From Undibacterium parvum (lineage in GTDB: Bacteria; Pseudomonadota; Gammaproteobacteria; Burkholderiales; Burkholderiaceae_D), in assembly GCF_003955735.1 (NCBI RefSeq), contig NZ_CP034464.1:2666001-2730000 (forward strand): DNA of 64,000 nt. Direction: 5' to 3'. This document shows positions 51,982 through 63,082 of this stretch, in pieces. A program made the translations under genes and the position numbers. Below the pieces are notes generated by a model that saw only the letters and a list, made by a program, of their open reading frames with translations, ran no database searches and was not told the origin of the DNA. How positions within the stretch are numbered: position 1 is the first letter of the stretch; each line of letters opens with the position of its first letter.

Positions 51982-53082
51982 TTAGCCGTGCTTACGGCCA
52001 TACGCTTCTATCAAGCCTGCGATATTGCTCAAAGGCGTAATCTTGTCGATTGCGCCCAGTTTGACGGCTTCTTTAGGCATGCCATATACCACGCAAGTTT
52101 TTTCATCCTGGGCGATGGTTTCGGCACCTGCGTCATGCATCTCGCGCATACCTAGTGCGCCATCGTCACCCATGCCTGTCATGATGATGCCAAGCACATT
52201 ACGGCCGGCGCATTTGGCGACCGAGCGAAATAGCACATCCACTGAAGGCCTATGCCGATTGACGGGCGGTGCATCGATCACCTCGACATGGTATTGCGCG
52301 CCACTACGCTTGACCTGCATATGCCGTCCGCCAGGGGCGACCAGAGCGCGACCGGGTATAACCCTATCGCCATTCTTGGCCTCTAGCACTTCTATGTCAC
52401 AAATACTATTGAGCCTATCGGCAAACGCCGCGGTAAATTTTTCCGGCATATGTTGCACAATCACGATACCAGGGACAGTACGCGAGAGCTGCGTCAGCAC
52501 CACCTCTAGTGCTTGGGTGCCGCCAGTGGAGGTGCCGATTGCCACCAATTTGTCGGTCGTAATTGCCATCGAAGTGAGCGAGGTCTGGCTAGCCTCACTC
52601 GCTGGCATGACCTGATCTATACTCAGTTTTTTTGGCGGGGTGAGTCCAGCCATGGTCATCGATTTTACGTGCCGCATATTCGCAGCAGCAGCGGCTTTCA
52701 CGGCCTGTACAATATCGCCTTCGTCGAGTTCTAAAAAATTCTTCAAGCCCGCTTTGGGTTTGGTTACGATCGCTACCGCGCCAGCCGCCATCGCCTGCAT
52801 AGAAGTGGCGGCACCTTTCTCAGTGAGGGTAGAACAAATCACCACCGGAGTAGGGCGGATAGACATAATTTTTTTCAGGAAGGTGATGCCATCCATGCGC
52901 GGCATTTCTACATCCAGCACGATCACATCAGGCCACTGCACATTCATCTTATCCATGGCAAAGATGGGGTCGGGCGCCGAAGCGATCACTTCTATACCGG
53001 CGTCTTTTCCCAGTAGTGCGGCCAGTACCTGTCTGACTACAGCAGAATCATCGACCAGCATGACCTTAATTTTTCCGCTCAT
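51982..53082 (-). CDS. cheB: chemotaxis protein-glutamate methylesterase/deamidase
   Basis: A 366-residue receptor demethylase activated by phosphorylation. The receiver domain has [14 protein letters not shown] and the phospho-Asp in [13 protein letters not shown]. The catalytic domain has [10 protein letters not shown] (Ser), [17 protein letters not shown] (His) and [12 protein letters not shown] (Asp). It removes methyl groups from chemoreceptors. Its ATG overlaps the cheD stop by 4 bp (ATGA), so it is the last gene of the cluster. Confidence 0.95.
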
Positions 53083-53573
53083 GGCGTCATTACCTTTTCT
53101 ACGTGTTTCACCCAGACGTCACCAGACCAGACGTCGAACATGATATTTCTATGACCATTGCCTCCCATATGCTCGGATTTAATTTTGAAACCATGCTGCG
53201 CCAGTAGATGACGTCCTACCTCTACATTTTGGTCGGAAACTGAAAACACGCGTTTATCCTGGGTAGGAAATTGATTGCCACCACCAAATATCTTTACTTC
53301 GTAATCGTGTGGATGGGTACGGGCTTTTTTAATTTCATGCATAAATAAATGGATGGTGTCCTCTGCATATTTGCCATCGAGTTGGGCATTGTGTCCAGCT
53401 CTCTTATTCTTGGGCAGCATGTAATGACACATGCCACCTATATGTTTTTTTGGGTGCCAAAATGTGATGGATACGCAGGAGCCTAAGATAGTGCGTATCC
53501 GTGTTTCCCGGTCGCCGAAGTAAAACTCTCCGGGTTGCAGGAAAATATCAATATAAAAGCCTGGTTCGTCCAT
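53079..53573 (-). CDS. cheD: chemoreceptor glutamine deamidase
   Basis: A 164-residue receptor deamidase. The catalytic cysteine is in [12 protein letters not shown] and the histidine in GGMCHYMLP, both in the usual order. It converts glutamine side chains of receptors to glutamate and may also act on CheB-linked adaptation. It overlaps cheB by 4 bp and is preceded by cheR. Confidence 0.93.
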
Positions 53574-53595: not shown

Positions 53596-54429
53596 TTAAG
53601 CTTCTTTGCGGTAGATTGATGGCCCAACCAGTTTTAGTGAAGAGTTGATGCCATTCAAAGTCTCAGAATGGCTGATAATAAAGTAGCCGCCCGGGCGCAG
53701 TTTCTCGTATAGTCTTTGCACCAATTTTTGCTTGGTCTCCATATCAAAATAGATCATGACATTGCGTAAAAATATTACCTCAAACAATCCCAAATCAGGC
53801 AATTTTTCTATCAGATTGGCGACACTAAAGTGGACTTTTTTACGCAATACACCATCCACCAGGAAAAAATCTTCAAACTCTTCGCGCCCTCGCAAACAAT
53901 ATTTTCTGAGTAAAGATGTGGGGATCTTTTCTGCTGCCGACATAGGGTAGAGTGCACGCCGCGCTTTTTCTAACACGCGGGTAGAAATATCGGTGCCTAT
54001 CACCTCCCAGCCATCGCCCGGGAAATGCTCGGCTAAGGTCATGGCGATGGTGTAAGCCTCTTCGCCGCTAGAGCTGGCGGCGCTCCAGATCCGTATCCCA
54101 CGCAGGCGTGCATATTCTGGGAATACCGTTTTTTGCAAAAATTCAAAATGCTTGGGTTCGCGAAAAAAATAGGTTTCGTTGGTGGTCAGTAAGTCGATGG
54201 CGGCGGTGGTTTCGTCCTCATAACCAGGACGCCCGAGTAAGGCAAAATACGCGCCATAACTGGTCAGATCGCGGCTCCTTAGGCGCTTATCAAGCCGCCC
54301 CATGACCAGCGCTTGCTTGCCTTCATTGAGGGCAATCCCGGTGCGTTCATACAAAAATTTAGAGATCCATTCGAACTCTTGTTTTTGTAGCGCCACCGGT
54401 GCCAGGCTGCGTACTTTGTTAACTTGCAT
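53596..54429 (-). CDS. cheR: chemotaxis protein methyltransferase
   Basis: About 277 residues. It methylates receptor glutamates with SAM. Signature segments: TTNETYFFREPKHFEFL, the SAM motif IWSAASSSGEEAYTIAM, and VIFLRNVMIYFD. An upstream in-frame start at 54462 would add 11 residues inside cheW. ATG 54429, overlapping the cheW stop by 11 bp, is more likely. It fits the receptor's C-terminal KFERF tail, which can tether CheR. Confidence 0.95.
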   Translation of the reverse strand: MQVNKVRSLAPVALQKQEFEWISKFLYERTGIALNEGKQALVMGRLDKRLRSRDLTSYGAYFALLGRPGYEDETTAAIDLLTTNETYFFREPKHFEFLQKTVFPEYARLRGIRIWSAASSSGEEAYTIAMTLAEHFPGDGWEVIGTDISTRVLEKARRALYPMSAAEKIPTSLLRKYCLRGREEFEDFFLVDGVLRKKVHFSVANLIEKLPDLGLFEVIFLRNVMIYFDMETKQKLVQRLYEKLRPGGYFIISHSETLNGINSSLKLVGPSIYRKEA

Positions 54430-55015
54430 GCTCAGACTCTGTCGCTGGCACCTCAGCGCCACTCAAGGTTTGCCCCAGGGCTACCATCTCTTCGATCGAT
54501 AGCACTCTATCGAGGTTGAGTACGATGATGAAGCGTCCGGCTTGCTTGGCCATGCCGCTGATAAAGTCGGGCCGGATTTTTGCACCGAAAGACGGCGGTG
54601 GTTCGATCTCGGCAGCGGCGATATCCACCACTTCGTTGACCGCATCGACCATCACGCCTATGCTCTGGCCTTCGTTTTCCTCGCTCTGCGCCATCTCTAT
54701 GATGACGATACTGGTGCGGCGTGAGACGCTGGTGACGCCGCGCCCAAAGCGGGCTGCCAGGTCGACTACCGGCACTACCCGTCCGCGTAAATTAATCACC
54801 CCACGGATGAAGGAGGGCATCATCGGTACTTCGGTTAAATCACCGTATTGAATGATTTCCTTGATGTTTAAGATGCCCAGCGCATACACCTCACCGCCCA
54901 AGACGAAGGTTAGATATTGGCCAGAATTTTGCGCCGCTTCCAGTTGCGCTCTGGCCGCCAGCTCTGACGCTGTTTCGGTTTTCTTTGCTGCCATTGATCC
55001 TGAGTTGCTAGCCAT
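54419..55015 (-). CDS. cheW: chemotaxis coupling protein
   Basis: A 198-residue scaffold linking receptor and CheA. The N-terminal 30 residues are a charged extension; the CheW fold follows with LTFVLGGEVYALGILNIKEI, MMPSFIRGVINLRGRVVPVVDL and GVMVDAVNEVVDI. It is longer than E. coli CheW (167). It sits directly downstream of the receptor gene and translationally overlaps cheR. Confidence 0.95.
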   Translation of the reverse strand: MASNSGSMAAKKTETASELAARAQLEAAQNSGQYLTFVLGGEVYALGILNIKEIIQYGDLTEVPMMPSFIRGVINLRGRVVPVVDLAARFGRGVTSVSRRTSIVIIEMAQSEENEGQSIGVMVDAVNEVVDIAAAEIEPPPSFGAKIRPDFISGMAKQAGRFIIVLNLDRVLSIEEMVALGQTLSGAEVPATESEHAS

Positions 55016-55023
55016 GGTCGCTC

Positions 55024-58000
55024 CTAGAATCGTTCAAATTTGGCGTCGTCGAAACCGGTATTGGCGACTGTCTTACTGTGTTTAGGCGCGCTTTGACGTT
55101 TGCTAGACTTGGCTTCGTGCCCACCCTGGCGGCTAGATTTGCCTTGCTGCCCGAGATTAAAGAAGCCTACCAATTCCATCAATTGTTCGGCCTGACTAGT
55201 CATTTCTTCTGCGGTGGCGGCCAGCTCTTCACTCGATGAGGCATTTTGCTGGGTGATTTGATTCATCTGGTTCATGGCGGTATTGATTTGCCCGACCCCG
55301 GCCGATTGCTCTTGTGATGCCGCAGCAATCTCTTGCACCAGATCCGAGGTGCGGCCTATGCCTGGCACGATCTCATCGATCAGTTCACCGGCACGTTCCG
55401 CTGTTTTGACGCTGCCGCCAGCTAAGTCGCCAATTTCTTTGGCGGCAATCTGGCTACGTTCCGCCAGTTTGCGCACTTCTGCAGCCACCACCGCAAAGCC
55501 TTTGCCGTGCTCACCGGCGCGTGCCGCTTCGATTGCCGCATTCAAAGCCAGCATATTGGTCTGGTAGGCGATGTCGTCGATGATGCCAATTTTAGAGGCG
55601 ATCTCTTTCATGGCCGAGACCGTGCGTTTGACGGCGTCGCCGCCTTCTATCGCTTCTTTGGAGGCCTTGCCGGCGATGCCATCGGTGACTTTGGCATTCT
55701 CGGCATTCTGGTTAATCCCCGCTGCCATTTGCTCTATGCTGGCACTGGTTTCTTCTACGCTGGCGGCTTGTTCGCTGGCCGCTTGCGATAAGGCTTGCGA
55801 GGTGGCCGAGACTTGCTCGGATGCGTTCGATAAGGCATCGGTGGCGTTGATGACGTCGGTGACGATTTGCGAGAGCTTGTCGACGGTTTCGTTACTGGCT
55901 TCTTTTAAGGCGCCGAAGGTGCCCTGGTAATCCTTCTCTATGGTTTCGGTCAGATCACCCTTGGCTAGGGCGCCGAGCACGCGCAAGACTTCATTGAGAC
56001 CCTGATCACTGGTTTCCATCAGACGGTTGATGTCGCCGCTGAGTTTGGCAAAGAAGCCCGTTTTACCTTGTTCTACCAAACGGGTGGTGAAGTTGCCATT
56101 GACCGCTTGTTCGACGATATTCGCGACTTCTTTTTCGACTGCGACTTCGGCCGAGCGATCCAGCCATTCCACCACGCTCCCTAAACGTTCGCCACTGCCA
56201 TTGATGACAGGATTGGCCGACAAAGCGAAGGTGCGCGCACCCACCACGATTTGCGCTTTGTAATTGCTGGTAAAAGTGGCCAGCAGATTTTTTTGATGCG
56301 CAGGGTTTTTATGGAATTGATCGATATTCGTACCGAGTAAGCGTGAGGCGCTGAAATTTGGCAACACCTTACGTAAATCGGCTTCGGCATTACTCAACAT
56401 ATCGACTACGGATTTATTCGCGTAGATGATGTTGCGCTCGTTATCGGCGATCATGACATTGGTGGCGCAGCCATCGAGCGCGATCTTGATGCGGGTGTTC
56501 TCTGCTGCTGTTTGCAGTTCAGCCTCGCGTGCTGCAATTTCAGCAGTGCGGTCAGCCCACTCCACGACGGTACCAACTCGTTTTCCGTCGGCATCGATGA
56601 TAGGGTTTGCAATCAATCCAAAAGCCAAGTTTCCTACCTGAATTTGTGTCTTGTAGGTGGAAGTCAATGCAGACAACATGCCGCGTTGATGTGCCGGATT
56701 TTTGTGGAAGACATCGATGTTTTCACCTATGAGTTTGCGCGCATTGAAGTTCGGCAAGCTCTTGCGTAACTCGTTTTCATTGCCCTGCATCATGGCCGCT
56801 ACCGTCTCATTCATGTAGATGATGTGGTTGCTGGCGTCGGCAATCATGACATTCGTACTGCACTTATCGAGCGCGTTTTTGATGCGGGTATTTTCTGCTG
56901 CTGCTTTGAGTTCAGCATCACGGGCGGCGATTTCTGCCGTTTTATCTGACCATTCCACTACCGTACCCTGGCGCACGCCAGCTTTGTCCATGATCGGTGT
57001 AGCGATGAGGCCAAAGATACGTCCGCCCACGGTGATTTGAGTTTTGTAGGTATCACGTAATCTGGCCAACATGTCGCGTTGATGTGCTGGATTTTTATGG
57101 AAGATATCAATGTTGCTGCCCATCACCCTAGGCGTGGAGAAGTTAGGCAAATCTTTACGGATATCACTCTCGGCGGCAGATAACATGCTATTGACCGAGG
57201 CGTTCATGAAGATCACGTTGTTGCCCGCATCGGCAATCATGACATTACTAGAGACGACTTCTAAGGCGGTGCGCACACGGGCATTAAAGTTGGCGGCGAC
57301 ATCGGCTTCGCGCAGTGCTCCTTGGGTTTGCCCCAGCGCCTCTAGTAGTTGTCCGACTTCATCTTGGCCTATCGTGCCCAAGTCTTCATCAAAGCGGCCA
57401 CTCCCTAAGCCACGCGCTATATCCACAGCACGCTCTAGTGGAGTGGTAATCGAGCGGGTGATCAAATACGCCAACGCGCCCGCAATCAATACAGCAACAG
57501 CGAGCAAAATCAGCGTGAGTCTATTGGTGCTCGCCGCAGACTTTTCAGCCTCCTCGGTGCCGTCTATCACCAGTTTTCGTTGGCTCTCCAGCATGGCCTC
57601 GAGCGATTTGTTGAGGTCAGTGAATTCTTTGCGCAAGTCGCCAAAGACTAGGCCTTCCGCCTCGGCGCGTTTGCCCTCATCCACCAGTTTGATAACTTTA
57701 TCCAGTGTGTCTTTATAGCCTGCACGCTCCTTCTTGATGCTCGCAAACAGCTCTTTGCCCTTGGGCGTATACAGTAGTGGCTCTAGCTTGTCCAAGGCTT
57801 CGCTTACTTTGGCGCGATTGTCTGCCATTCTCTCTTTGGCGGTGGCAATGTGCGCCTTGTCGCTGGTGGCGACCAGCTCGGTGGCGCGGGTAGCGTTAGC
57901 GCGACTAAACACTATGGCCTGGTAGGTATAGTCCGCCTTTTTGAAGTCTTTATCACCTATTTGTTGGGTGACCTCGTCGATTTGCTTGAGCTTATGGAGG

Positions 58001-58518
58001 CTAAACAGGCTCATGCCAATCAGAAGCGCCAACACTAGCCCAAAAGCGACATACAGACGCGTACCGATTTTATAATTATTTAAGTTCATGATCCATTTTC
58101 CTTGTGAATTATTTACCTTAGATGCCTTCATCATGACGCTAGCCATGACGCCATAAACTTCTGTCCACGCGGCTTTATGCGAGGGGGTAAAAGCGCTACC
58201 CAAGCCCTGTGCCAGGGTCTTGAGCAAAGCCGCGCCAACGGTCTGGTAGTGCGCGTCTTTGACGCCATATCCAGCATGTCGTTTTCCTAAAGATTGCAAG
58301 ATAGGCACCAGGCTGTCTAAGTCATTGAGCTTGCCTACCGCTGCGCCTATCATTTGCATCAATTTTTTACCCTGCGCCTGCATGTCGCCTTTGAATAAGC
58401 GTTGCAAGCTCGGGTCCGCTTCAAACAGATTTTTATAAAATAGTTCAGCCGCCTGCGGCGCAATTTTTGCGACTTCTTGCCAGGACTGCTGAACTAGTTG
58501 TATCGTTTCTTGTTTCAT
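55024..58518 (-). CDS. globin-coupled transmembrane chemoreceptor with three Aer2-like PAS domains
   Basis: About 1164 residues from ATG 58518 (AGGAAG in front). Order: globin (1-133) of the Vitreoscilla haemoglobin class, with FYKNLF and candidate proximal His81 in [14 protein letters not shown]; short linker; TM1 (about 152-172); periplasmic four-helix bundle; TM2 (about 334-354); HAMP (355-407); three PAS repeats of exactly 131 residues, each with FHKNPAHQ (His474, 605, 736) and VVEW (Trp523, 654, 785); a HAMP-like segment; and an MCP signalling hairpin with the tip [20 protein letters not shown]. The tail ends KFERF, a CheR-tethering-like pentapeptide. The canonical receptor start MNLNNYKIG lies inside (58089) with its own AAGGA. 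The globin must be cytosolic. O2 or NO sensing is inferred. Confidence 0.9.
58087..58110 (-). promoter_or_regulatory. internal ribosome-binding site and ATG within the globin-receptor frame
   Basis: Reading leftwards, AAGGA stands 9 nt before the ATG at 58089, which begins [17 protein letters not shown], the usual start of a free-standing chemoreceptor. Initiation here would give a receptor without globin. Three out-of-frame TAA triplets lie just upstream. Confidence 0.6.
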
Positions 58519-58589: not shown

Positions 58590-60803
58590 TTATCCGGTCG
58601 CCGCGCTTGGCAACTGTAGATGTTGCTGATGGGCGCGCCTGGTATATTGCTGCAACATGGCGGAAATACTGAGGATCAAGGCGACTTCGCCACTACCTAA
58701 AATGGTCGAGCCACCTATGCCTTGTAGATGCACAAAGAGTTTTCCTAGTGGCTTAATCACGGTTTGGAACTCGCCCATCAGACGATCAACGACCAGACCG
58801 GCTTTATTGCCGCCATAACCGACTACCACCACGTTTTGACGGCGCGGTAAATCGCCCTCTATATCGAATAAATTGCGTATCCGTATGAAGGGCAGTACCT
58901 CGCCACGCAAGTCCATGAAGTCGTTGTCGCCACATTCTCTGGGGAGTTCCAGGCACTCAATCACATTGTCGAGTGGCACCACAAAAGAGGAGGTGCCAAC
59001 CCCGACCAGAAAGCCATCGATGATGGCCAGCGTTAGTGGCATGCGTATGCGCATGGTGGCGCCAACCCCGATTTCGCTATCGATTTCTATGGTGCCGCGC
59101 AAGGAGGTGACGTTACGCTTGACCACATCCATGCCTACCCCGCGTCCGGATAAATTCGAGACTTGATCGGCAGTAGAAAAGCCTGCCTCAAAAATGAGAG
59201 CATAAATTTCTTTGTCGCTGAGGCTGGCGCCGGCTGGGACTAGTCCGCGCTCTATCGCTTTGGCGAGGATTTTGTCGCGATTGAGCCCGCCGCCATCGTC
59301 ACTGACTTCGATCACGATACTGCCAGATTCATGGTAGGCATTCAGCCGTAAAATGCCTTGCGCAGGTTTGCCGCGCGCCGCGCGCATGGCCGGCGCTTCT
59401 ATGCCGTGATCCATGGAATTACGCACCAGATGCATGAGTGGATCGCCAATTTTATCCACCACCGATTTGTCGACTTCAGTATCGCCGCCGCCGATTTCTA
59501 GCAGTATGTCTTTGCCTAACTCTATGCTGACATCTCTGACCACGCGCTGAAAGCGGCTAAAGGTGGTACCTATCGGCACCATGCGTAGTTGTAAGGCGCT
59601 GTCGCGTACTTCTTCTACCAGGCGCATGACTTCGCTGGTCGATTCGAGTAGCGCGATATCGTTCGACTTACTGGCGCGCAGATTGGTACCGGCGCCGGCT
59701 ATCACTAGCTCGCCCACCAGATCGATCAGTTTATCGAGCCGCTCTGCATCGACCCGGATGTTTTGTTTTTCACGTGCCTTCGTGTCTTTAACCTGCTGTT
59801 GTTTATTTAAAGCTGCATTCAAGATCGGTTGTTGCAGCATTTCCTGATCGACTAAAATTTCACCGATAGGTGCTTCTTTGCTTTGGCCAGTATTGTTGGC
59901 GTGTTTTTTCGCTTGCAGACGCAGGCATTCGTCGAGCTCATGTTTAGTGAGCACGCCGCTCTTGATCAAGATCTCGCCTAGTAATTCGTTATCGTCGGGC
60001 AGGGCATTGATGATGTCGATGTACTCGTCCATTTTGCTGTTGGGCGGGACTATCCGTATCACGCTGTCTTCACGCACAAATTCAAAGACGTTTTCGATCG
60101 CCTCTTTGTTGGCGCTACTTTTTAGCACGACCTCAAAACCCAGGTAGCAAGTCTCGGCATCCATCTTGTCTATGTGGGGCAGCTTGTCGGTGATTGTGAT
60201 GAGATTGACGACATCGCCCAAGGTGCTGAGATAGCGAATGAAAGACAGTGGATCCATGCCATTGCGCAAGCAGTCCGGGCCAAAGCGCAAGGACAGATAC
60301 CAATTGCCGTTATCGATGGCGCCACCGCCGCTCGCTTTGGTCGCGGTTGCTTCATGATGATGGGCTAGTTCGGAACCGCTGCCTGCTGGGCTGTCTTCAT
60401 GATTGAGAAAACGTCGCAAACGCACATGCAAGGCCGCTCCGGCGCTGGTTTGCTCGGGGGTTGCCTGTAGTGCCCCAGCGGCAACCCCGTCTATCAAAGT
60501 GCTGATATGGTCGCGGCAAGGGAGTAGCACGGCGATCAGCTCGGTGCAGACGCTAATCTCGTCGTTGCGTAGCATATCGAGTACGCTCTCCACCACATGG
60601 GTAAATTGCACGATATGATCGAGCCCAAATAAGCCGGAGGATCCTTTAATCGTGTGCGCTGCACGAAAGATGGCGCCGATGGCATCAGCAGGATTGTCGT
60701 CGTGCTCTAGCCCGAGCAGTCCGTCTTCCATGTCTTGCAGTAGCTCTCGACTTTCGACCACGAAAGTGTCTAGTGCGGCCTTCATTTCTTCTTCGAAATT
60801 CAT
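58590..60803 (-). CDS. cheA: chemotaxis histidine kinase
   Basis: A 737-residue kinase. P1/Hpt has His50 in FRAAHTIKGSSGLFGLDH. The usual P2 region is replaced by a diverged fold (about 165-265), and then two LGEILIxxGxLxxxxLxxxLxxQ motifs (about 275-350, LLGEILIKSGVLTKHELDEC and PIGEILVDQEMLQQPILNAA) that resemble the c-di-GMP-binding MshEN unit. Dimerisation P3 (DAERLDKLIDLVGELVIAG), ATPase P4 (HLVRNSMDHGIEAP, GRGVGMDVVKRNV) and CheW-like P5 follow. It phosphorylates the nearby CheY and CheB. Confidence 0.95.
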   Translation of the reverse strand: MNFEEEMKAALDTFVVESRELLQDMEDGLLGLEHDDNPADAIGAIFRAAHTIKGSSGLFGLDHIVQFTHVVESVLDMLRNDEISVCTELIAVLLPCRDHISTLIDGVAAGALQATPEQTSAGAALHVRLRRFLNHEDSPAGSGSELAHHHEATATKASGGGAIDNGNWYLSLRFGPDCLRNGMDPLSFIRYLSTLGDVVNLITITDKLPHIDKMDAETCYLGFEVVLKSSANKEAIENVFEFVREDSVIRIVPPNSKMDEYIDIINALPDDNELLGEILIKSGVLTKHELDECLRLQAKKHANNTGQSKEAPIGEILVDQEMLQQPILNAALNKQQQVKDTKAREKQNIRVDAERLDKLIDLVGELVIAGAGTNLRASKSNDIALLESTSEVMRLVEEVRDSALQLRMVPIGTTFSRFQRVVRDVSIELGKDILLEIGGGDTEVDKSVVDKIGDPLMHLVRNSMDHGIEAPAMRAARGKPAQGILRLNAYHESGSIVIEVSDDGGGLNRDKILAKAIERGLVPAGASLSDKEIYALIFEAGFSTADQVSNLSGRGVGMDVVKRNVTSLRGTIEIDSEIGVGATMRIRMPLTLAIIDGFLVGVGTSSFVVPLDNVIECLELPRECGDNDFMDLRGEVLPFIRIRNLFDIEGDLPRRQNVVVVGYGGNKAGLVVDRLMGEFQTVIKPLGKLFVHLQGIGGSTILGSGEVALILSISAMLQQYTRRAHQQHLQLPSAATG

Positions 60804-61231: not shown

Positions 61232-61600
61232 TTAAGGCAGAATTAATTTTGAAACCGCGGCCAGCATCTGAGCTGGTTGAAACGGCTTGACCACCCAGGC
61301 TCGGGCACCGGCCGCCTGACCCTGTAATTTTTTACCTTCTTGCGACTCGGTAGTGAGCATGATCACTGGGGTAAATTTATATAAGGGCAGTTTTTTTACT
61401 TCGGTGACGAAGGTTATGCCATCCATATTGGGCATGTTGACATCGGAAATAATCAGATGGATTTTTTGACCCTTGAGTTTGGACAGGGCATCGACCCCGT
61501 CTACGCCTTCGATCACGGTATAGCCAGCGCCGCGCAGCGCCAAACCTACCACTTGCCTCACTGACGCCGAATCATCTACCACCATCACTGTCTTGGACAT
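61232..61600 (-). CDS. cheY: chemotaxis response regulator
   Basis: A single receiver domain of about 122 residues: VMVVDDSASVRQVV (acidic pair), phospho-Asp in LIISDVNMPNMDG, the TTESQEGKK Thr site and the VVKPF lysine. ATG 61600 with AAGGAAG in front is the likely start; the frame is open to 61714 without a good start. It receives phosphate from CheA. It could drive the flagellar motor or serve another output, since this cluster resembles P. aeruginosa che2. Confidence 0.93.
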   Translation of the reverse strand: MSKTVMVVDDSASVRQVVGLALRGAGYTVIEGVDGVDALSKLKGQKIHLIISDVNMPNMDGITFVTEVKKLPLYKFTPVIMLTTESQEGKKLQGQAAGARAWVVKPFQPAQMLAAVSKLILP

Positions 61601-61749
61601 AATCGTCTTCCTTAAGTGTCGTTTTAAAATGAATAAAACAAAATCTTTATGTTGCACTGTGTGCCAGCTTGGTATCTGGCTGTAGTTTTGTAGGGCATTC
61701 GAAAAAATCAGCAATTACGATGGGACTAAAACTAAACAGGCACCCCACC

Positions 61750-61849: not shown

Positions 61850-63067
61850 TCAAAAAAACGTAATTTCGTCGTCTTTGCTAGCGCTTTGGCTAGGCGTACC
61901 CCTTGCTTGTACGTGGCTGCTATGCTGATCGTGCATGGTGTAATAGGTTTCCAGATCAGCCATCCATTCTGCGGTACTCGGCATAGGAATTTGCTCTGCC
62001 ATGGTTTTGAGTAGTTTGCCTATGTCGCGATCTAGCACATCGAGTATCTGGCTGACTCTATCTTGATATTGCAAGGTCACCAGCAGATTTTCTACGTCAT
62101 TGCGTATCACTTCACCACGGCTACGCATTTCCTCTGCCGCATCACCCAGGCTTTGCACATGGCCTAAGACTTCTTTCACCACCTTGCCAGATTGTTGCAT
62201 CACTTTTCTATCTTGCTCATTGGCTTTTTGTGCGGTTTTGAGGGTCGATTTTACGACCTCATTGATCTGGGTGACGCGCTCACCTATGGTCTTGCCAGTT
62301 TCGCCTGAGATGAGTGAAAGTCGCCGCACTTCGCCCGCCACCACGGCAAAGCCGCGACCGTGGGCGCCGGCCCGCGCTGCTTCTATCGATGCGTTGATTG
62401 CCAGTAAGTTGGTCTGCGCCGCAATTACGCCTACGCTATGCGCCATGTCTTTTAGGTCCGCCACTGATTCCGCCAAGGTCTTAATGGCGTCGAGCAACTC
62501 GCCTTTACTGTCTATCATCTGCTCTAGATGAGCGATCACGGGCTCTAAATCTTGTTGGCAAAGATTGATTAAATTTATCGTGGCTTGATGTTTGTCGGAA
62601 TTTTCACCGCTCGCCTTGCTGCTGAAACCGGCCTCATCGAATTGCTGGATTAAAGAGCCGAAACTGTTGATCAGTTGTATAACTGCATTTTCAGTTTGTG
62701 ATTTGACGGTGAGCACATGATTTTGCCAAACCGGGAGTACGGTGTTGAGTAATTCGCTTGGTAGTTGTTCTGAAACCAGGGTGACAGCTTGTGCTGGTGC
62801 ATAGCTGTGCCTGATGTGCGCTTTGTTTGCTGCGGCGGTGGCCAGCGCCTCTTCCGCTTCAAGCTCTTTTTTTTGATTGAGGCGCGTCCAGATTACCAGT
62901 ACCAGCAAGATGCCAAAGAATGAGATGATCGCCGGCAGTGATTTTTTAGAAAATACGGGAACAGCGGAAAATACCAAAATGAGCGCAGGAAAAGCGTAGG
63001 CGAGTTTGATAGCGCCTAGCTGACGTGAGCATGTGCCATACGCTAATTTGGACCTTGTCACTTGCAT
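61850..63067 (-). CDS. methyl-accepting chemotaxis protein without large sensor domain
   Basis: About 405 residues. Two close hydrophobic helices (about 19-60: [20 protein letters not shown] and [20 protein letters not shown]) leave almost no periplasmic part, so it probably senses from the membrane or cytosol. The signalling domain has the tip [20 protein letters not shown]. The C-terminus ends DEITFF, a pattern also seen in other short receptors, with no clear CheR pentapeptide. GAGG before ATG 63067 fixes the start. It is first in the cluster, upstream of cheY. Confidence 0.88.
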
Positions 63068-63082
63068 TGAACCGCCTCGCAA

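Follow-up and report, generated by a model that had tools for sequence, protein, structure and literature searches.

The window, as we call the whole 64,000-nucleotide stretch of Undibacterium parvum analysed here (contig NZ_CP034464.1, positions 2,666,001 to 2,730,000), carries a chemotaxis (che) operon whose receptor gene joins a globin of the F family to a membrane-bound chemoreceptor with three PAS domains that are predicted to bind haem. We consider it probable that this is an Aer2-type receptor gene of the operon that has gained a globin and has two translation starts, the globin serving as a tethered module. The architecture, the globin pocket residues, the three haem-PAS motifs, the operon, the C-terminal pentapeptide and a conserved ATG with a ribosome-binding site at the globin/receptor junction can be read directly from the DNA; the making of two products from one gene is a prediction.

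Gene and domain architecture

An earlier note on this DNA had described one open frame running from a globin through two transmembrane (TM) segments to a chemoreceptor signalling domain. The single frame is confirmed: 1164 codons run uninterrupted on the minus strand (the note gave no strand), from an ATG at 58518-58516, preceded by AGGAAG, to a stop at 55026-55024, and the opposite strand there is riddled with stops. The order claimed for the domains (globin, TM1, four-helix bundle, TM2, HAMP, three PAS and MCP) agrees with Pfam and hydropathy (Table 1), except that a second HAMP had been overlooked. The earlier note had likewise missed that the PAS domains are of the haem-PAS type, that the gene lies in a che operon, and that it has a C-terminal pentapeptide and a putative internal start. 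All Pfam matches on the receptor lie above the curated cut-offs: Globin covers residues 27-129 (1e-19), TarH matches the same part as 4HB_MCP_1 and PAS_8 matches in three stretches. Hydropathy shows two hydrophobic segments, beginning near residues 151 and 327, and with the topology that we infer, the proposal of a cytosolic globin ahead of TM1 is upheld.

Table 1. Features of the receptor gene and its che operon in the window
Feature	Position	Strand	Basis
Receptor gene, globin-4HB-HAMP-(PAS)x3-HAMP-MCP, 1164 aa	55024..58518	-	open frame and Pfam
F-family globin, residues 1-133 (Tyr28 B10, Gln49 E7, His81 F8, Tyr91 G5)	58120..58518	-	PF00042 1e-19, 3s1i 7e-33
Junction linker, residues 134-143	58090..58119	-	lies between globin and receptor parts; highly variable among relatives
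AAGGA, Shine-Dalgarno-like, 9 nt ahead of internal ATG	58099..58103	-	duplex -5.4 kcal/mol
Internal in-frame ATG (Met144), proposed second start	58087..58089	-	junction Met kept in relatives; start of matching unfused receptors
TM1, about residues 151-169	58012..58068	-	hydropathy
4HB_MCP_1, residues 148-326, presumed periplasmic	57541..58077	-	Pfam 2.5e-26
TM2, about residues 327-345	57484..57540	-	hydropathy
HAMP, residues 352-404	57307..57465	-	Pfam
PAS1, about residues 413-528; haem motif His474, Trp523	56935..57282	-	Pfam, structure match, motif
PAS2, about residues 544-659; haem motif His605, Trp654	56542..56889	-	Pfam, structure match, motif
PAS3, about residues 675-790; haem motif His736, Trp785	56149..56496	-	3vol 1.8e-39 here, motif
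HAMP_2, residues 820-882	55873..56061	-	Pfam
MCP signalling domain (MCPsignal), residues 949-1089	55252..55674	-	Pfam 3.5e-37
C-terminal KFERF, CheR-tether pentapeptide	55027..55041	-	fits x-[HFYW]-x(2)-[HFYW]
cheA, directly upstream of receptor	58590..60803	-	Pfam
cheW, directly downstream of receptor	54419..55015	-	Pfam
cheR	53596..54462	-	Pfam
cheD	53079..53573	-	Pfam
cheB	51982..53082	-	Pfam
cheY-like receiver; frame given, real start probably further in	61232..61714	-	Pfam

The globin

The globin matches PF00042 and has TyrB10, GlnE7 and HisF8, the marks of an F-family single-domain globin; these helix positions, with G5, are assigned partly from globin nomenclature and partly from papers on Hell's Gate globin I. 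Protoglobin, the sensor globin of the S lineage, has no match listed in the receptor up to E = 1 (Pfam). Membership of the HemAT/globin-coupled sensor (GCS) lineage, which the earlier note had also denied, is rejected because PF00042 matches and Protoglobin does not. The label "Vitreoscilla-type" stands in so far as this is a 3/3 globin of the F family, but the closest solved chain is Hell's Gate globin I (3s1i, 7e-33), followed by HGbRL (8e-27) and, far behind, Vitreoscilla haemoglobin (VHb; 1vhb, 1.6e-14), and GluH23 is absent. Flavohaemoglobins use GluH23 of the proximal triad; an alignment with seven of them puts Ser at that position here, and Ala, Ser or Thr occupies it in 68 of 74 distinct fused proteins. 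Tyr28, Gln49, His81 and Tyr91 are kept in all 74, and the intact pocket is to all appearances under selection. With the pocket residues kept and GluH23 replaced, haem binding is very likely and a flavohaemoglobin-like enzyme cycle less likely. Since Pfam finds no FAD/NAD reductase domain in the receptor and GluH23 has no equivalent, we reject identity as a flavohaemoglobin.

The haem-PAS receptor

Solved structures place the PAS region with the haem-PAS of P. aeruginosa Aer2 (3vol 1.8e-39, 4hi4 1.9e-38), the best match falling on the third PAS, and 6ceq (1.4e-18) matches at the second. FHKNPAHQ, with a Trp 49 residues on, occurs in all three PAS; we take the first His of this motif to be the equivalent of H234 of Aer2, and the distal Trp of P. 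aeruginosa Aer2 to be W283. H234 is the haem ligand of Aer2, and V. vulnificus Aer2 has three haem-binding PAS, a number also predicted for the window's receptor, according to a review (PMC13401364) for the two Aer2 proteins; 6ceq is the V. cholerae Aer2 (PMC8694187). The receptor thus has PAS domains homologous to solved haem-PAS, the haem His and distal Trp, and a C-terminal pentapeptide that fits the CheR-tether motif x-[HFYW]-x(2)-[HFYW] printed for Aer2-like receptors (96 of 130; PMC7184735), and we file it as a variant of the Aer2-type receptor. The NCBIfam equivalog for Vibrio Aer2 gives 559 bits, below its cut-off of 1200, and the receptor is, by this score, related to Vibrio Aer2 but other than that orthologue.

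The likeness to Aer2 (P. aeruginosa McpB/PA0176; V. cholerae, V. vulnificus) extends over the haem-PAS His motif, HAMP, MCP, the CheR pentapeptide and the setting in a che cluster, whereas the N-terminal globin, the four-helix bundle with two TM segments and the internal start signal are the receptor's own. Its operon content and pentapeptide would also suit the 36H heptad class with an F7 CheA. The word "globin" has no occurrence in the main text of the paper on F7 and Aer2 (PMC7184735; term search).

Relatives and distribution

Three protein searches, one of them limited to the best 120 of 125 matches, gave 257 distinct proteins, to all of which a profile was applied in counting single N-terminal globins, whereas MCP signatures and haem-PAS motifs were scored by sequence patterns rather than Pfam. 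By these measures 188 are chemoreceptors with a single N-terminal globin, two have the globin at the C-terminus (P0042, P0235), six have two or more globins and 61 are without an MCP signature. Among the 181 distinct fused receptors, 173 carry one to six haem-PAS motifs and 165 the pentapeptide. Between the globin and the first haem-PAS a hydropathy rule finds two TM segments in 32, one in 13 and none in 136, and we reject the idea that the membrane part is the point of the design. The combination of globin, periplasmic and PAS inputs inferred in the earlier note changes accordingly: the PAS domains are themselves predicted haem sensors, and the membrane part does not define the family.

The fusion is present as one frame at 24 distinct DNA loci, the window's own among them, from many assemblies (28 frames labelled fused, minus the flavohaemoglobins L014, L021, L023 and L159). 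The earlier note had proposed looking for split genes or a frameshift at the junction: a receptor frame downstream behind a stop was found in none of 115 distinct single-globin loci (at most 4 kb inspected; less than 1 kb in three). This rejects an origin from a neighbouring globin-stop-receptor gene pair. An assembly or frameshift artefact joining two genes is refuted by the independent assemblies, with a junction of this kind at 24 distinct loci and in 188 proteins, and we dismiss it.

An MCP lies anywhere in the locus for three of the single-globin loci, upstream in L081 and L104 and on the other strand in L105. In the che operons of L081 (3254-6438) and L104 (3774-6450) the globin has a gene of its own, immediately behind one for an Aer2-like receptor. 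Ten loci were searched with the che proteins of the window. In seven (L030, L031, L071, L075, L080, L096, L100) the fused gene comes after cheA or after cheA-cheW-cheW; L039 is a single globin, and neither cheA nor cheW was seen in the DNA examined of L054 and L079. Seven of 43 genomes of the genus have this globin, fused in four (G000, G007, G014, G023; the contig of G007 ends early); the genus includes Undibacterium flavidum, and L031 has the same coordinates as G023. On a quick globin tree, built on a short alignment with many unresolved forks, the fused state needs at least six changes, two of them forced by well-supported branches.

Free-standing copies of the same globin are found in many Proteobacteria. 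The globin type also occurs in dCache/HAMP adenylate cyclase proteins (P0056-P0064, P0250-P0252, P0254, P0255), C-terminally where inspected, the named ones being from cyanobacteria, and, by precomputed Pfam, in a CheA-like kinase (P0253), in proteins with PF00924 (P0244-P0247), which we take to be the MscS-channel domain, and in a Ser/Thr kinase that also has a ferredoxin domain (P0257). Aquimarina proteins carry two such globins in tandem (L069, L077, L083, L087).

A putative second start at the junction

The receptor part opens with MNLNNYKIG; AAGGA lies 9 nt ahead of its ATG, and the duplex with the anti-Shine-Dalgarno (anti-SD) sequence is -5.4 kcal/mol at the junction versus -4.3 at the globin's own start. 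Across the 24 fused loci the mean duplex is -5.7 kcal/mol at the junction ATG and -6.2 at the globin's own start (p 0.38 between them); these genes have 482 other in-frame ATGs, where it is weaker than at the junction, at -2.6 (p 1e-7). A core SD 4-mer stands 4-12 nt ahead of 18 of 24 junction ATGs versus 45 of 482 others. The RNA fold of the 60 nt around the ATG is -3.8 at the junction versus -11.9 at later ATGs, a contrast that may partly reflect linker base composition. For L168 and L169, the ATG of KEPAM was used in the duplex and SD comparison and the first ATG in shuffles of synonymous codons, which gave their strongest results where an Arg is encoded by AGG (L002, L003, L004, L030; p 0.01-0.02 each); AGG makes up 11 of 126 Arg codons in those frames examined, the junction ones included.

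Unfused receptors of the genus indicate where this signal may have come from. At the cut-off used, 21 of 43 genomes gave 22 congeneric loci, in which cheA is followed by a globin fusion in four and by a globin-free receptor in 18. In nine of these 18 the N-terminus resembles the fusions from the junction Met onward, with the start at the equivalent codon, a match judged by eye with global scores for six of the nine: L201, L202 and L218 are of the window's type, and L204-L207, L209 and L210 of a soluble type (MSQKTPSFLSKMFSGEQL). Seven of the nine have a clear SD (-5.4 to -8.4 kcal/mol). From these shared starts it appears that the original start site of the receptor was retained in the fusions. 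In the remaining nine the N-terminus is of another kind, which means that receptor N-termini are exchanged here.

Conservation of the junction methionine

Linker length ranges from about 10 to more than 60 residues among relatives. In linkers of the Colwellia type the ten residues before the Met are 18% identical pairwise, versus 66% for the globins, and Met is nonetheless present in 26 of 26, as the single Met in 25; these columns were aligned on Met, which makes the column invariant by construction, so that the test is whether every linker has one. L169, missed by the pattern that defined this set, has the Met too (by eye). From the early linker set of 74 proteins, P0002, P0042, P0056-P0064 and three duplicates were dropped. 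A further 51 distinct linkers of the Colwellia type (56 from later searches, minus five common to the 26) all contain Met, where composition would predict 61%, and exactly one in 37; Phe, as common as Met in these proteins, occurs in 2% of the 56. Of 193 new proteins in those later searches, 107 were set aside by pattern (52 with no globin motif, 37 tandem, 10 with the globin not N-terminal, 8 without MCP signature) and 29 had other linker types.

Over all 181 distinct linkers, a Met lies no more than 26 residues from the globin in 145 of the 165 pentapeptide receptors. This count includes P0019, which has Val as its junction residue and a Met 11 residues on. In 18 more, inspection by eye places the Met where a longer linker ends. 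At the protein level, KG or QG stands right before the first Met in 81 of 180 versus 80 of 3735 control Mets; codons for KG and QG can carry an SD, and the enrichment partly reflects shared ancestry, related proteins being counted singly. P0030, P0034, P0215-P0219 and P0222 are receptors without the pentapeptide that have similar linkers, often with the junction Met missing.

A proposed scheme: two receptors from one gene and a tethered globin

We propose that a membrane-bound haem-PAS chemoreceptor of the Aer2 type gained an F-family globin at its N-terminus. Ribosomes would start at two places, so both a full-length receptor of 1164 residues and a globin-free one of 1021 residues would be made; long and short forms could mix in dimers and trimers of dimers. 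Since both would come from one message, the cell could set the number of globins in the array. The globin would act as a haem module on a tether, binding O2 or handling NO next to the haem-PAS domains and thereby setting their range or protecting them, rather than pushing TM1 via a rigid linker. The PAS domains would remain the main gas sensors, with HAMP_2 relaying their signal to the MCP domain and on to CheA and the flagellar motor. That the globin acts beside the haem-PAS domains is suggested by a linker free in length and sequence, and by the finding of the same globin at the N-terminus, at the C-terminus (two proteins) and, in two loci, as an operon gene of its own. We favour O2 or NO handling for the PAS haems over input through TM1. 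The broader statement, that a widespread Aer2-type branch took up a tethered F-globin, kept the receptor's start inside the fused gene and makes both receptor forms, we put at even chances.

Several observations weigh against this proposal. The globin lies elsewhere in only two separate-gene and two C-terminal cases, which leaves few loci in support of a tethered module, and eight of the 181 distinct relatives have no haem-PAS motif by our own pattern. A conserved internal start codon with a ribosome-binding site, as in two-start genes, is present in the set as a whole, but six of the 24 loci (L161, L163, L164, L168, L169, L170), all from the search around Colwellia, have no core SD 4-mer, and the p values for the junction signal ignore shared ancestry. 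The synonymous-codon test is mixed: the combined p of 1.6e-4 is carried by the AGG codon of the Undibacterium type, and the window's own gene gives p = 0.45. We therefore place the weight on conservation of the Met and on the comparison with other ATGs. Two of the matching unfused starts have a weak SD (L202, -0.4; L218, -0.9), and neither P0054 nor P0243 has the junction Met; of the 16 receptors without the pentapeptide, six have it and 10, some of which are fragments, do not.

The globin might instead be a fused dioxygenase that destroys NO before the haem-PAS is blocked and senses nothing itself. An F-family pocket with TyrB10 and GlnE7 suits that role, as does the lack of any other PF00042 protein in the genome, which would therefore have no flavohaemoglobin; the missing reductase domain and the replacement of GluH23 described above speak against it, and we hold such local scavenging possible though on balance doubtful. 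That the globin is an ordinary N-terminal input, relaying ligand-driven movement to TM1 or the first coil by way of the linker while the internal ATG has no role, we think unlikely. Known globin-coupled sensors are described, in a review, with an N-terminal globin linked to the output domain, and the globin stays fused, as the 115 single-globin loci indicate; however, the freedom of the linker, the C-terminal and separate-gene copies of the globin and the retained start signal at the junction all run counter to in-line transmission.

The junction signal could also be a relic of in-frame fusions, repeated and recent, ahead of receptors that keep their old start, with only the full-length protein made in any amount. 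The six or more changes on the globin tree fit this, as do the likeness of the signal to the one that unfused receptors have at this place and the fact that, for the window's gene alone, synonymous shuffles do equally well. Against it, the Met persists in every linker of both Colwellia-type sets although the surrounding sequence has diverged to 18% identity, and it is often missing in receptors without the pentapeptide, so that it seems to decay when not needed; we regard the relic as improbable.

Relation to known systems

CheA long and short, like the products of other genes with an internal start, come from one frame with two in-frame starts. The likeness lies in two such starts in a chemotaxis gene, and the difference in that CheA is a kinase, not a receptor. 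A narrow search of open-access PubMed Central (PMC) text found no account of an internal start in a chemoreceptor. If the two products are made, this would be the first chemoreceptor known to us whose sensory content is set at translation, and how the receptors of an array widen or shift its oxygen range would become testable; more generally, one protein is not the only possible outcome of a fused frame. The receptor would also add a new globin lineage to the oxygen steering of bacteria, and, as its three PAS match the solved haem-PAS of Aer2, up to four haems of two kinds are predicted per subunit.

HemAT and other globin-coupled sensors share with the window's receptor an N-terminal globin and a C-terminal MCP domain. 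They differ in their S-lineage globin (Protoglobin, PF11563, named in the portions seen of PMC6194562), compared with PF00042 here, and HemAT is described, in a review, as just globin, linker and signalling domain. The 2006 globin census (PMC1457004), in the portions available, places chimeric globins in two groups, flavohaemoglobins (FHbs) and GCSs. The earlier note's view that the architecture was undescribed holds for the F-globin type, of which open-access PMC text gave no description, but a globin-plus-PAS chemoreceptor with a truncated T-type globin (PF01152) and no membrane part was reported in 2018 (PMC6194562). As far as the available portions of that paper go, this type, exemplified by C. 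coralloides Cc_4972, likewise combines PAS, globin and MCP in one protein, lies in a che cluster and has a proposed role in aerotaxis; it differs in its truncated globin and cytosolic location, seven proteins are reported, and those portions give no internal start. HGbRL and Hell's Gate globin I (Methylacidiphilum) share the globin subgroup with Tyr B10 and Gln E7, and HGbRL is also a fused globin, but the partner is Roadblock/LC7 or there is none (PMC4476040, PMC11203436, available portions).

The che operon and the host genome

The che genes run, all on the minus strand, in the order cheY, cheA, receptor, cheW, cheR, cheD and cheB; cheA lies 71 nt upstream of the receptor gene and cheW 8 nt downstream. 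Immediately upstream of cheY, at 61850-63082, is a gene for a short MCP-signal protein of 410 aa. In the 4.9-Mb genome the window's receptor is the sole PF00042 match. MCPsignal is found at 24 places, with a readable frame in 18 (stretches of about 3.4 kb), and two of these 18 frames have the haem-PAS motif, namely the window's gene and one paralogue (L243:2901-6362), which is globin-free, 1153 aa long, with three haem-PAS and its own copy of cheW. Window positions 54450-56502, covering the receptor end and cheW, and L243:4884-6936 have 2053 nt in common at 98.3% identity, which marks the stretch as a presumed recent copy or gene conversion.

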